Positions 42,793 through 48,827 of a stretch of 48,827 nt of DNA are shown in pieces. Position numbers and translations under genes: made by a program. The stretch's first letter is position 1. The number at the start of each line of letters is the position of its first letter. The notes under the pieces were generated by a model. That model worked only from the letters and a program-made list of their open reading frames with translations. It did no database searches and was not told where the DNA came from. Source of the stretch: an uncultured Chloroflexota bacterium (GTDB lineage Bacteria; Chloroflexota; Anaerolineae; Anaerolineales; Anaerolineaceae); contig CACYHU010000007.1 of assembly GCA_902774215.1 (NCBI GenBank), positions 1-48,827 on the forward strand, read 5' to 3'.

Positions 42793-42864
42793 GCAGCCGG
42801 GCAGCAGAAACCAGGAAGAACCAAAAGGAGCTGCCGCAAATTATAATTTTGAAAAGCCATCGGG

Positions 42865-42990
42865 AGGGAGTGCTTCGCAGGGACGCGGAATAAGCGTCAG
42901 CCGGCAGCGAAAGTGATCCCCGCGTCCCGGTTAATTCAGTCGGGGGACACGCGCTGAGCAAGCTCACGCGTGTCCCCCGACACCCCTGTA
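42865..42990 (+). repeat. diverged third copy of the GC-rich structured repeat
   Basis: It shares GGAGGG-nn-TGCTTCGCAGGG with the tandem pair at 46.6-47 kb. Helix 1 is TGCTTCGC (42871-42878) with GCGAAAG (42907-42913). Helix 2 is GGGACGCGG (42880-42888) with CCGCGTCCC (42920-42928), nine perfect pairs. The helices interleave. A long GC hairpin follows, GTCGGGGGACACGCG (42939-42953) with CGCGTGTCCCCCGAC (42967-42981), then ACCCCTGT, echoing the GGGGGCC/GGCCCCC-ATACCCCC part of the other copies. Sequence differs from those copies while pairing is kept. Confidence 0.65.
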
Positions 42991-43205
42991 TAAACCGCTG
43001 AATCACTCCGTTGATGATACGATCATTCAAATGATTTCCCAAAACAAAAGATGAGCCGTTTCGCGTTATTTAAAGGCGCCAAAGCCGGCGGGTGACGGTC
43101 AAGCTCAACCGACCCGGCAATATCTCCATGGTGCAGCGGGAAGTTCTTCCGCCGGCACCGCCCGCCATTTCGGAGCATTTGCTTTTGATGGTATTAATGA
43201 GAAAA

Positions 43206-44881: not shown

Positions 44882-46597
44882 CTAATCCTCCTTGATCTTT
44901 CTGCTGGTGCCGAAGTATTTCGTAAACAGATTCATCAGCAGAACGGCACCGTAGGTGATGATGATCAGAATTGTTGCAAACGCACAGGCCAGGCTGTAGG
45001 AGCCTTTTTCAGCGAACTCATTGATCTGTACCGTGATGAGCAGGAACTGCGGCGTCACAAGCAGGATGATCGCTGAAATAGCCGTAATGGAGCGGACAAA
45101 CGCGGTCACCAGACCGGAAAGGAAGGAATCCTTGATGAGCGGCAGGGTGACAGTCATAAACACCTTGAAGCTGTCCGCGCCCATGTCGTAGGCGGATTCT
45201 TCAATGGATTTATCGATCTGCCGCAGGGCGGAAATACCGGAACGGGTCCCGGTCGGCAGGGAACGGACAATGAAGACGATGATCAGGATCAGCCCCGTAC
45301 CATAGATACCCTGCAGAAAGCCGGTATGGAACACGCCGCCTGAAAAACCGCGGATGTACCCCACGCCGAGCACTGTACCCGGGACAGCCATCGCCAGCAT
45401 GGAAACAGCTTCGATGAAGCCCTTGGATTTGAAGCTGCGTTTGACCACCAGATAGGAGATGATCATGGAAAGCAGCGCGGTGATCGGAGAGGCAATCAGG
45501 GAGAGGACGAAGGAGTCCTTGAAGGCTTTGAAGCCCTTGTAGCGGGTGAAGACCAGCTCGAACCATTTGCCTGTGAGCGGGAAGAATTTGCGGCCCCAGG
45601 TCGGGAACAACGCGCCGATCGGCACGCAGATGTACATCGCGATAACGAAGAGCGCGACGAGCGTGCAGAGGACAGTGAGCGGGATCTTGACGCTCTTGTC
45701 TTCCATCAGCATACGGCCGCGGGAAGCTTTCCCGGTAAGGGTGGCAGCGGTCTTGGCTTCGAGGTAATACTTCTGGACGGCAAACATGATGAGGGTGATG
45801 CACAGCAGCACGACAGCCATGGCGGCAGCACCGGCCTTGTCATAGGCGCCGGTGATCTGCAGGTAAATGGTGGTCGCCAGTGTATCATAGGAACCGCCGA
45901 TCAACATCGGGTTGGCGAAGTCCGCGATGGACTCAATGAAGGTCACCAAGAAGGCATTGCCGATGCCGGGGAGCATCAGCGGCAGGGTGACATCGAGGAA
46001 GACCTTCCAGCGTCCGGCGCCCATATCCCGGGCAGCCTCCTCCAGGGAGGGATCGATGTTCTTCAGCAGCCCCTTGAGCATCATGTAGCAGACAGGGAAG
46101 AAAGTCAGCGTCTGTACGATGACGATCCCCCAGTATCCGTACACGCTGTTGTCATAAATGCCGAGCAGGTGGCGGGTGATGATCCCCGCTTTACCGAACA
46201 GCATGATCATGGAAAGCGAGAGTACGAAGGGCGGAGAAACCACCGGCAGCATGGAGACGACCTTGAACAGGCCGCCGACGAATTTATTCAGCCGGACATA
46301 GACTTCCACATAAGCAAAAAGCAGCCCGATGAAAGATGACAAAAGCCCGACGACAAAGCCGACCTTCAGCGTATTGGTAATGGCTGTACGGAAATTCGGC
46401 ATCGCGAAGATCCGCTGGAAAACGGAAAACGAAAAGCCTCCATCACCGACAAAGCTGTCAACCAACAGGATCGCCAGCGGATAGAGGATAAATAAGGTAA
46501 GGAAAGCGATCAGAACAACGATCGTTGTGATCATGATCGGATCACCGAACAGCTTTTTACGATCAAGTTCCGCGCTCTGACGCGTTCTTGCTGCCAT
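44882..46597 (-). CDS. ABC transporter permease, fused FbpB type
   Basis: The 571-residue protein has two consecutive permease domains, about 12 helices. There are two EAA loops: NIDPSLEEAARDMGAGRWKV near 195 and QIDKSIEESAYDMGADSFKV near 470. One polypeptide thus replaces the usual permease dimer, as in FbpB/AfuB-type iron importers. AAAGGAGG precedes the ATG. The 426 bases between it and the upstream binding-protein gene hold a terminator and the tandem structured repeat. Confidence 0.93.
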   Translation of the reverse strand: MAARTRQSAELDRKKLFGDPIMITTIVVLIAFLTLFILYPLAILLVDSFVGDGGFSFSVFQRIFAMPNFRTAITNTLKVGFVVGLLSSFIGLLFAYVEVYVRLNKFVGGLFKVVSMLPVVSPPFVLSLSMIMLFGKAGIITRHLLGIYDNSVYGYWGIVIVQTLTFFPVCYMMLKGLLKNIDPSLEEAARDMGAGRWKVFLDVTLPLMLPGIGNAFLVTFIESIADFANPMLIGGSYDTLATTIYLQITGAYDKAGAAAMAVVLLCITLIMFAVQKYYLEAKTAATLTGKASRGRMLMEDKSVKIPLTVLCTLVALFVIAMYICVPIGALFPTWGRKFFPLTGKWFELVFTRYKGFKAFKDSFVLSLIASPITALLSMIISYLVVKRSFKSKGFIEAVSMLAMAVPGTVLGVGYIRGFSGGVFHTGFLQGIYGTGLILIIVFIVRSLPTGTRSGISALRQIDKSIEESAYDMGADSFKVFMTVTLPLIKDSFLSGLVTAFVRSITAISAIILLVTPQFLLITVQINEFAEKGSYSLACAFATILIIITYGAVLLMNLFTKYFGTSRKIKED

Positions 46598-46620
46598 TTA
46601 ATCTCTCCTCCTTTCTACTT

Positions 46621-46787
46621 TAAGAGCCCACTTTGCATTCCGGAGGGCTTGCTTCGCAGGGCGCGGGACCGTAAGTCCGTGTGTCTGCGAAAGCCGCAGC
46701 CCGCGCCTGATTTCCGGGGGCCTGCGGCCCCCATACCCCCGCTCTGTTTCAGGGCTCTTTTTCTGACTCATCCGCAAAATGCGGCGG
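46621..46787 (+). repeat. GC-rich structured repeat, tandem copy 1 (167 bp)
   Basis: Helix 1: TGCTTCGCAG (46650-46659) with CTGCGAAAGC (46685-46694), one bulged base. Helix 2: GGCGCGGG (46660-46667) with CCCGCGCC (46700-46707), interleaved with helix 1. Then a hairpin GGGGGCC-TGC-GGCCCCC (46716-46732) followed by ATACCCCC. AGAGCCC (46623-46629) and GGGCTCT (46752-46758) can close the whole unit, followed by TTTTTCTGA on the plus strand. CCGCA-AAA-TGCGG ends it. Not coding in any convincing way. Confidence 0.75.
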
Positions 46788-46793
46788 TAGCGA

Positions 46794-46960
46794 TAAGAGC
46801 CCGCTTTGCATGCCGGAGGGCATGCTTCGCAGGGCGCGGGACCGTAAGTCCGTGTGTCTGCGAAAGCCTCAGCCCGCGCCTGATTTCCGGGGGCCTGCGG
46901 CCCCCATACCCCCGCTCTGTTTCAGGGCTCTTTTTCTGACTCATCCGCAAAATGCGGCGG
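46794..46960 (+). repeat. GC-rich structured repeat, tandem copy 2 (167 bp)
   Basis: It is a direct repeat of 46621-46787 with a 173-base period. By eye the copies differ at four positions (near 46803, 46807, 46822 and 46870), all outside helix 2. All helices of copy 1 can form here. The pair occupies most of the gap between the binding-protein and permease genes of the ABC operon. Confidence 0.75.
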
Positions 46961-46980
46961 CTGCTTCTTTAAAATAACGA

Positions 46981-47005
46981 AGGATGGCGGAAATTCCGCC
47001 ATCCT
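46981..47005 (-). terminator. hairpin after the ABC binding-protein gene
   Basis: A perfect 10-bp stem, AGGATGGCGG / CCGCCATCCT, with a 5-base loop lies 19 bases past the stop. The minus strand continues CGTTATTTTAAAG, a weak T run. It probably limits read-through into the permease and ATPase genes. Confidence 0.7.
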
Positions 47006-47023
47006 TATTAAAATGCGGACAGA

Positions 47024-48106
47024 TCAGTTCGTCTGGAAGCGGCTGGTATCGCCGGTGTCGGCACCGGAGTTCGCCAGAGCATCCATGACCTCGCTGATGT
47101 AGGTCTTAATGTTGGCAGTCGCGTCTTCGAAGTCATAATCCATGACATTTTCCGGATCGAGACCGAAGTCATAAGCGGCCTGCGGCTGCTTGGCATTGTC
47201 CAGGACGAGGAACTGGTAGGAGCCGTTTTCAGCGCCGAGTTCAACACATTCCGGGCTCAGGGCATATTCCAGCCACAGCTTCGCGGCGTTCGGATGGGCA
47301 GCGCCCTTGAACATGGCAGTGGCGCCGATTTCGAAGGAGGTACCGGTGGACGGGATGACCAGGGCGATGTTGTCATAGCCGTTGTCCAGGATCTGGGTGA
47401 TGCCGTCATGCAGGAAACCGATGCCGATGACGCATTCGCCGGTGCCAACGTTCTTGGACGGGCCGGAACCGGACTTGGTGTAGACTTCGATATTCTTGTC
47501 AAGGTCGACAAGGTACTGGATGCCTTCGTCGTGGCCGTATTTCTGGATCATGGTGTTGATGACCAGTTTAGCGGTACCGGCGGTGTTGTAGTTGGACAGC
47601 CAGATCAGGTTCTTGTATTCGGGTTTCAGGAGGTCAGCCCAATCCTGCGGAGCTTCGAGGCCCATGCGGTCCAGTTCTTCCTGGTTGACCATGAAGCCAA
47701 GGATACCCTTGTAGATACCGAACCAGTAGCCGTCAGCGTGGCGGTACATGGGGCTGGTGAGGTGGACAGCGTTTTCGGGTTCAACCGCTTCGAGCAGGCC
47801 TTCAGCAGCGACGACATTGTACGGGTCGGTTGTGCCGCCGAACCATACGTCAGCAGAGGGGTTGCCGTTTTCTTCTTCGATCTTGGCCTGAACTTCACCG
47901 GTGGAAAGACGCTGATAGGTCGTCTTGATACCATAGAGGTCCTGGAAGTGCTGGGTGGCTGCGGCGAGATATTCTTCTTCGCAGGAACCGTAAACAACCA
48001 GTTCGCCTTCTGCCTGGGCAGCGGCGATCAGTTCTTCTGACTGGGCCATGGCGCCGTTAACAAGGACCATGAGCGCAAGAAGTACGAGAGCAATAATTTT
48101 CTTCAT
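47024..48106 (-). CDS. ABC transporter solute-binding protein, AfuA/FbpA type
   Basis: The 360-residue protein has a signal peptide (MKKIIALVLLALMVLVNGAM, then AQSEEL) and no lipobox. The mature start EGELVVYGSCEEEYLAAATQ is characteristic of AfuA/FutA/phosphonate-type binding proteins. Later segments include PSADVWFGGTTDPYN, WIGIYKG-like YWFGIYKGILGF, and HPNAAKLWLEYALSPE. Ligand candidates are ferric iron and phosphonates. The double Tyr of classical FbpA iron sites is not evident, so iron is uncertain. AAGGAG precedes the ATG; a consensus promoter lies 75-105 bases upstream. Confidence 0.88.
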   Translation of the reverse strand: MKKIIALVLLALMVLVNGAMAQSEELIAAAQAEGELVVYGSCEEEYLAAATQHFQDLYGIKTTYQRLSTGEVQAKIEEENGNPSADVWFGGTTDPYNVVAAEGLLEAVEPENAVHLTSPMYRHADGYWFGIYKGILGFMVNQEELDRMGLEAPQDWADLLKPEYKNLIWLSNYNTAGTAKLVINTMIQKYGHDEGIQYLVDLDKNIEVYTKSGSGPSKNVGTGECVIGIGFLHDGITQILDNGYDNIALVIPSTGTSFEIGATAMFKGAAHPNAAKLWLEYALSPECVELGAENGSYQFLVLDNAKQPQAAYDFGLDPENVMDYDFEDATANIKTYISEVMDALANSGADTGDTSRFQTN

Positions 48107-48210: not shown

Positions 48211-48255
48211 TCTTGAGAGGGGGTGAGATTTTTCCTGAATATCACTGATATTTTG

Positions 48256-48579
48256 CATGGGAGTTGGTAGTTGGTAGTTGGTGGTTGGTAGTCAGTGGTC
48301 AGGGGTCAGTGGTCGGTGGGGGGCAGTGTTCAGTGGTCGGTGGTCAGTGGTCAGTCGGCAGCAGACAGATGGCAAAAGAGTTCAAAGTTCAAAGTTCAGA
48401 TAAGGTGACGCTTCGCGTCTTTTTTGATTACCGGCAACTGGCAACTCGCAACTAATAACTACCAACTACCAACTAATAACTACCAACTACCGGCAACCGG
48501 CAACCGGCAACTGCTGCCAACTGCCAACTGCCTGCTGCCGACTGCCTGCTGCTACCAACTACCAACTACCAACTAATAA
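48256..48579. repeat. degenerate short-repeat tract with self-complementary halves
   Basis: The left part (48262-48357) is G/T-rich, built of GTTGGTA and GGTCAGTG units. The right part (48430-48579) is C/A-rich, built of TACCAAC, AACTAATAAC and GGCAACC units. The two halves are near reverse complements and could fold into one large imperfect hairpin. Between them lie TTCAAAG repeats and a terminator. No coding sense: the ORF at 48264-48455 is pure repeat. The tract lies between the ABC promoter and the small minus-strand gene at the edge. Confidence 0.8.
48407..48425 (+). terminator. compact terminator hairpin inside the repeat tract
   Basis: GACGC-TTC-GCGTC followed by TTTTTT is a compact plus-strand terminator at the apex of the self-complementary tract. 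No plus-strand gene ends nearby. Confidence 0.6.
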
Positions 48580-48827
48580 CTACTTCCTCTTCTTCCGTTT
48601 TTCACGCAGTGCTTTGCGGGTCTCTTTGGAGGGACCTCTTGCGGCGGCTTCTTTGATGGCTTTTTCTTTCTTCAGGGTTTCGATGTAGCGCTCCCAGCGG
48701 GCGCGGAATTGCGGTTCGTCCTCCTGCTGGATGGCCAGAACAGCCGCCTGATCGCCTTCCCTGAGTGCCTTCTCGATGAGCTTCTTCCGGGCTTCTCCTT
48801 CGCTGATCATTCCCGGCGGGCACTCCG
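48580..48827 (-). CDS. charged small protein, possibly 5'-truncated by the window edge
   Basis: The frame from ATG 48810 gives 76 residues, very charged and helical (EARKKLIEKALREGDQAAVL, WERYIETLKKEKAIKEAA, ending RKALREKRKKRK). The frame stays open upstream to the edge (ECPPG before the Met) and no clear ribosome binding site is seen, so the gene may continue beyond the window. No family recognised; the Lys/Arg tail could bind nucleic acid. Confidence 0.5.
   Translation of the reverse strand, partial: ECPPGMISEGEARKKLIEKALREGDQAAVLAIQQEDEPQFRARWERYIETLKKEKAIKEAAARGPSKETRKALREKRKKRK

Follow-up and report, generated by a model that had tools for sequence, protein, structure and literature searches.

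Non-autonomous elements derived from IS200/IS605 leave no duplication, lack terminal inverted repeats, carry subterminal hairpins at both ends and show a target preference next to one end. The YPAL/RU-2 repeat of Yersinia is 168 bp long. It is characterized, in the sections of PMC2229807 that deal with it, as a sequence that is not A+T-rich, with internal inverted repeats, for which empty and filled sites exist and which makes duplications of 3–26 bp. According to the same sections, ERIC/IRU elements have TA ends, carry terminal inverted repeats of 7 bp and make duplications, and an orientation-dependent effect of ERIC on mRNA is reported (PMC2229807). GTAG REPs are 20–40 bp long and, according to the part of PMC3733652 that covers them, have been reported in Chloroflexi.

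Here we analyse a repeat in a 48,827-nt stretch of DNA (the window; contig CACYHU010000007.1) from an uncultured Anaerolineaceae bacterium whose genome, G000, evidently belongs to gut Flexilinea. We consider it likely that the feature under study consists of two tandem copies of a non-autonomous interspersed repeat that is new and specific to this lineage; we call it family A, and it measures ~182 nt. Among the matches listed for the open PMC literature, there was no account of Flexilinea repeats.

A tandem repeat in a transporter operon

The initial annotation had described two near-identical 167-bp units, 173 nt apart, that take up the intergenic space between the genes for a binding protein and its permease. 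Both points were borne out: the window holds two direct copies of 167 nt (46621–46787 and 46794–46960) with 98% identity and a start-to-start distance of 173 nt, and the flanking gene coordinates agree (Table 1). The helix arms named there are also in the sequence. The count of three copies was wrong; two are full, and the supposed third, seen as 29 matching bases at 42860, belongs to a diverged relative from another family, B. Because both flanking genes lie on the minus strand, the RNA strand of the units is likely to be the minus strand, that of the operon and the complement of the one read initially. In this sense family A reads AAAAGGTAACCACC...TATAGTAG (consensus from an alignment of 72 full copies); the outer ends of the tandem pair have diverged from the family ends AAAAGGTAACC...TATAGTAG. 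The sequence AAAGGAGG, which the unit adjoining the permease gene abuts, is the likely Shine–Dalgarno sequence of the permease.

Table 1. Features at the tandem repeat and its surroundings (window positions)
Feature	Position	Strand	Remarks
Family B relative	about 42827–43028	−	long hairpin and P4/P5-like core with TGCGAAGCACTCCCTCC
ABC permease gene (BPD_transp_1)	44882–46597	−	downstream of repeat on minus strand
Family A unit adjoining permease gene	about 46615–46796	−	3′ end (..CTCTTAAAGTAG) abuts AAAGGAGG
P1 closing helix, one arm	46622–46629		AAGAGCCC on +; partner 46752–46759; second unit +173
P2, one arm	46642–46651		partner 46732–46740 (GGGGGTATG on −); one pair broken in unit 1
P5 (pseudoknot helix), one arm	46651–46659		GCTTCGCAG
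P4, one arm	46660–46667		GGCGCGGG; partner CCCGCGCC 46700–46707
P5, other arm	46685–46694		CTGCGAAAGC
P4, other arm	46700–46707		CCCGCGCC
P3 hairpin GGGGGCC-TGC-GGCCCCC	46716–46732		present in unit 1
P1 closing helix, other arm	46752–46759		GGGCTCTT on +, then T run
Family A unit adjoining binding-protein gene, tandem copy	about 46789–46969	−	junction merged with other unit, outer end diverged
Hairpin past binding-protein gene	46980–47006		in all four relatives without repeat
Binding-protein gene (SBP_bac_6)	47024–48106	−	upstream of repeat on minus strand

The orthologous gene pair was found in four relatives (G005, G006, G007 and G013) and in none of nine other genomes of the genus (E 1e-20). 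In all four, the repeat is absent from the gap between the two genes and the hairpin behind the binding-protein gene is kept; this hairpin is ancestral and lies outside the element. Since the orthologous gap lacks the repeat in four relatives, family A was inserted here. The flanking genes of these relatives already differ by 13–18%, so the gap comparison is not base-exact. At another G000 copy, two alignable blocks are 308 nt apart, as against 14 nt in G005. The suggestion of a non-autonomous mobile repeat is supported by dozens of dispersed copies, by the four orthologous gaps without it and by a patchy distribution.

The gap itself (orthologues of window 46598–47023, L413–L420) is an insertion hot spot, with an insert that differs from species to species: by eye, G006, G013 and G005 carry array-like inverted sequence, and G007 has a gene for a four-helix bundle (23S rRNA IVP-like) flanked by inverted arms. 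Arrays of short units (TTGGTAGTTGGTAG... and complementary AACTACCAACTACC...) occur in the window at 48255–48585. In this genus, genes for 23S rRNA IVP-like four-helix bundles lie between inverted arms of a similar kind (L432, L438, L443, L453 and L458 in G000, L447 in G007), and by eye several such elements lie shortly ahead of start codons (7 of 30 fetched loci read). The array in the window may be an arms-only version of an IVP-type element.

Copies, ends and related repeats

In G000 the 40-base core occurs at 60 places, the window's two included; patterns for the 5′ and the 3′ end matched at 66 and 71 places, and reversed-pattern controls gave 0. Further copies in the genome, on which the initial annotation had made its reading depend, thus exist far above chance. 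BLAST recovered at least 45 family A matches (40 of 174 candidates scored). In G013, a 26-base core occurs at 11 places and the 5′ and 3′ ends at 12 and 16; G007 has one place for each of the three patterns. G005 has the core at three places, and neither of the two family A end patterns matched there. BLAST positives came from 5 of 61 genomes, G000 included, among them G005 with a core of at most 53 bases only and G039 with a weak 36-nt match. The core pattern occurred in 3 of 147 genomes of the family (40 places in G000, 72 in G005 and 7 in G013). With a covariance model of the core, under strict filters and with 12 scored candidates per row listed, G000 was the one match among 301 genomes drawn from the order; G005, G007 and G013 are absent from the rows listed.

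The hairpin pattern GGGGTATGGGG...CCCCGGAAA matched 78 stretches in a collection of 84,980 species, in an answer that did not contain G000 itself, as such records may be omitted there. Sixty-two lie in one goat-gut Flexilinea metagenome-assembled genome (MAG; the same sequences as G005), seven in the rumen MAG RUG13159, and nine are singles in unrelated bacteria, which we take as probable chance matches. The searched genomes and the species collection held no convincing family A copy outside the genus. Viral contigs held no hairpin pattern, and a phage or plasmid origin was rejected as the unit has no match to either.

Family A has no terminal inverted repeats, as its ends AAAAGGTAACC and TATAGTAG are not complementary. 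Among 64 copies there was no clear excess of 2–8-nt target-site duplications over shuffles; one copy had a duplication of 5 nt and one of 7 nt (0.3 and 0.1 expected). The right flank is 62–73% A across 4 nt on the minus strand, a preference and not a strict site, and the left flank carries no strong signal. GTAG ends the consensus on its minus strand, with a variable second base, and the hairpin at one end is 89.1% paired, with five double-change cells. Coding was rejected: 83 substitutions were synonymous and 234 not (26% against 28–29% expected), which gives no sign of coding selection. A 38-aa frame of the consensus is still open in 51 of 72 copies; as a gene it was discarded, because substitutions are about flat over the codon positions (120, 134 and 142) and 20 of the 72 copies are shifted or stopped.

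Either end may be missing from a copy, and among the partial copies read, 5′- and 3′-truncated forms are about equally common, which argues against retro-copying via 5′ truncation. Two chimeras (L340:445–642 and L346:2144–2345) are family A up to the P3 loop and family B beyond it, and L332 is a family B copy carrying the family A 3′ end. A separate hairpin repeat (TTCGGCTTATT.GTCGAAAGAATAACTGTCAGG) stands directly upstream of family A in two unrelated loci, L101 and L114, and similar letters follow a truncated copy in L343.

Family B occupies 69 places in G000, five in G007 and two in G006, and 16 of its 31 placed copies sit in convergent gaps. G005 carries a third family, with inverted ends GGGCACCTCTAAAA/TTTTAGAGGTTCCC; both ends were found in 64 of 81 elements, and 36 of these 64 show an exact 4-bp duplication, compared with 9.75 in shuffles. 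By ends and duplications, the G005 elements resemble DDE-type MITEs. The same hairpin core is thus carried with different ends and in different placements by family A, family B and the G005 family.

Conservation of the helices

The whole window had no match at the repeat in Rfam at the gathering cut-off, where a malK-I RNA elsewhere was the sole match (RF03069, 27636–27814, minus strand, 115.9 bits); with E up to 10, seven sub-threshold matches appeared, the best at 0.74. The view that the unit is not a known riboswitch or Rfam family therefore holds at the repeat, and an exact match to a known repeat or RNA family was not found. A terminator-like match at P1 and the T run exists on the plus strand only. 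P3 is longer in some other family A copies, where it contains a nested hairpin. Minimum free energies gave z scores of −1.5 (consensus) and −1.9 (window plus strand), which are not decisive alone.

Within family A, covariation support for the nested helices is weak: they are 94.0% paired as against 93.8% in shuffles (12/500), with 14 double-change cells against 6.6 (3/500). RNAalifold on alignment A1 (80 family A copies, from 82 references minus L325 and L356) returned an almost nil covariation term (−0.11) because the copies are too alike. From 45 chosen cores we took 30 (A2), and from 30 A cores a covariance model, R1, was built. Run on 31 loci picked by hand, R1 gave 37 matches at E up to 1, G005-type and family B elements among them and mostly over the whole model; for the best of the diverged ones E was 1e-5 to 1e-12, and several were weak. 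In the alignment of these 37 matches, seven of them family A, P3 is 98.6% and P4 98.9% paired. The two helices show 93 double-change cells (32.9 in shuffles, 0/500) and score 0.308 for covariation (0.125 in shuffles, 0/500), in an alignment that is fitted to the model, built on hand-chosen loci with a few weak rows and drawn from ~3 lineages. In each of the four P4 pairs with double changes, the 12 sequences that differ are the family B rows, so independent events are few. P2 is 81–85% paired.

The unit had been called structured, with a second helix that would make it a pseudoknot. Covariation among homologues does exist: P3 and P4 covary across diverged families, albeit in few independent lineages, and are the conserved structure. 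For the pseudoknot helix P5 the outcome is mixed. P5 is 98.1% paired in family A as against 97.6% in shuffles (1/500), with a single doubly changed pair that occurs in three sequences, two of them the tandem units of the window; a local hairpin competing with P5 is 91.9% paired in the same family. Across family B, P5 is kept in many copies with a change of G-C for A-U and broken in some. The G005-type cores lack a P5 partner, and P4 is followed there by TGCGAAGCA or by unrelated sequence; in a G013 relative the P5 spot is a local hairpin, TGCTGC-GAA-GCAGCA. The pseudoknot is therefore a feature of families A and B at best.

Placement relative to genes and competing explanations

Placement was scored on genes called by our own simple caller, not a published one. 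The 84 copies scored, full or partial, come from G000, G013 and G007 and include tandem copies and one weak match that is actually family B. Copies in co-directional gaps are sense in 44 cases and antisense in seven; in divergent gaps 14 of 16 lie nearer the sense start, in convergent gaps nine of 11 nearer the sense stop, and of the 61 copies that have a gene in sense downstream, 27 end at most 40 nt from its start. The 71 full non-tandem copies gave the same picture (36 sense and seven antisense in co-directional gaps, 13/15 divergent, 7/8 convergent, 26/52 within 40 nt of the start). A target model, in which the observed flank preference was weighted over all sites in 167 repeat-free intergenic regions of G000, predicts 0.389 sense versus 0.350 antisense and 15% within 40 nt. 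Full G000 copies with both neighbours called, tandem copies included, are 30 sense versus six antisense (P = 1.2e-4), and 23 of 42 lie within 40 nt (P = 3e-9). Target preference as sole cause of orientation was rejected on this comparison, and the excess over the A-rich target model means that orientation and closeness to starts need selection or transcription-linked targeting.

An intrinsic-terminator pattern is present in 22 of 80 copies read antisense and in none of 80 read sense; both units of the window have it on the plus strand. These matches offer a simple, partial reason for the smaller number of antisense copies and leave the closeness to start codons unexplained, for which loss of promoter-hitting insertions might be the cause. 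Twenty-eight genes start within 60 nt of a full copy. Besides the permease, 20 were scanned and proved diverse (NAPRTase, ATP synthase alpha/beta family, YchF, GMP synthase, HisRS, CPSase small chain, Rrf2, HxlR and others; six without a family at E 1e-8), and several look essential (ATP synthase alpha/beta family, HisRS, GMP synthase).

From these observations, one family A copy would have entered an A-rich site just 5′ of the Shine–Dalgarno sequence and then been duplicated head to tail. Transcripts of the operon probably include the repeat as a structured leader RNA that would still let the next gene be translated. Antisense copies would be rarer, perhaps since some end transcription when read that way. 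As no duplication and no inverted ends are found, we propose a single-strand mechanism: family A may have spread in trans through a Y1/HUH-type enzyme acting on hairpins in single-stranded DNA, which is a guess and the weakest step of this scheme.

Closeness to start codons could instead reflect selection for a function. A cis-regulatory leader RNA, riboswitch-like or an mRNA-stability element, kept ahead of many genes would fit the sense copies within 40 nt of starts (in both sets of copies), the bias in divergent gaps and the covariation of P3 and P4; we nonetheless hold it to be unlikely, given the diverse functions downstream, copies behind stop codons in convergent gaps, four orthologous operons without the repeat and an Rfam search without a match at the repeat. 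A riboswitch regulon was set aside because the scanned genes, 20 of the 28, share no common function. The inverted ends and 4-bp duplications of the G005 relatives with the same core would invite the reading of family A as a classical MITE of a DDE transposon. That reading is already contradicted by family A's own non-inverted ends, by its want of a clear duplication excess and by the failure of its end patterns to match in G005, and its probability is very low. A slim chance goes to the idea that the P2–P5 core is a shared functional module, carried as cargo by two mechanistically different types (family A and the inverted-end G005 elements), with family A a mobile leader cassette whose insertion depends on transcription, its target being either the coding strand of 5′ leaders that are active or the RNA itself.

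We consider it unlikely that family A belongs to the REP/BIME type and is mobilised by a RAYT transposase, even though its consensus ends in GTAG. Y1 (IS200/RAYT) matches occur in all five species holding A, B or G005-type repeats and in two of nine others (on open frames of 186 and 209 aa), a co-occurrence confounded by the five being also among the larger genomes. One of three tested Y1 proteins passes the NCBIfam cut-off of 80 for REP-associated tyrosine transposases (86.7; the others 41.6 and 50.2). Set against this, family A is several times longer than a REP, none of 23 Y1 loci (some stopping at contig ends, with incomplete flanks) had a family A match at E 1e-3, and the palindromes that surround 16 Y1 genes, read by eye, are not family A; most of these genes have them on either side, and for L376, L377 and L385 a single side could be judged. 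Since other repeats surround the RAYT genes in these loci, RAYT was rejected as the mobiliser. In one case a family B copy lies ~280 nt upstream of a RAYT. By eye, Y1/RAYT-like genes of gut Flexilinea (L368, L372, L375, L380–L384 and others) are each surrounded by distinct palindromic repeats of their own, so that one genus apparently contains several REP-like systems.

Other candidate mobilisers were also rejected. Sequences other than family A surround the three IS200-like TnpA genes (G005, G006 and G007), and at E 1e-3 neither family A nor family B matched in the 30 fetched 23S rRNA IVP loci. The search for an autonomous element bounded by family A ends found none among the unpaired ends fetched, which were partial copies and chimeras, or in those gaps between copies that were read. 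The one facing pair of family A copies checked (L355:2012–4804, G013) was rejected as a larger element, since it encloses two ordinary genes, adenine deaminase and a cytidine-deaminase-like gene.

With family A, Anaerolineaceae offer a clear example of a lineage-bound intergenic repeat that is structured and placed in sense right ahead of start codons, those of essential-looking genes included. One hairpin core is common to repeats with two kinds of ends, and A–B chimeras are joined inside the hairpin. Two questions become testable here: by what route such repeats move when they lack inverted ends, and whether targeting or selection accounts for their placement as sense leaders.

Compared with described systems, family A is like IS200/IS605-derived elements in lacking duplications and terminal inverted repeats, in its T-rich plus-strand flank and in a hairpin near at least one end; unlike them, it came with no TnpA gene bearing family A ends among those found. 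It shares the P3/P4 core with the inverted-end MITEs of its G005 relatives and lacks their ends and duplications. With GTAG REPs, as far as covered in PMC3733652, it has in common GTAG at one end, hairpins and RAYT genes in the same genomes, whereas its ~182 nt contrast with 20–40 bp and the RAYTs here are flanked by other palindromes. Like ERIC/IRU it is intergenic and structured, although terminal inverted repeats and duplications, which PMC2229807 gives for ERIC, are missing. In its properties it is like YPAL/RU-2, by its size class, its internal rather than terminal inverted repeats, a composition that is not A+T-rich and the existence of empty and filled sites; unlike YPAL as described there (3–26-bp duplications), it shows none, and its host belongs to a different phylum. 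By properties the nearest systems are YPAL/RU-2 and ERIC: family A likewise has many intergenic copies, structure, and filled and unfilled sites. Our best reading is that family A is a lineage-specific repeat of the ERIC/YPAL kind, much like those of other bacteria.
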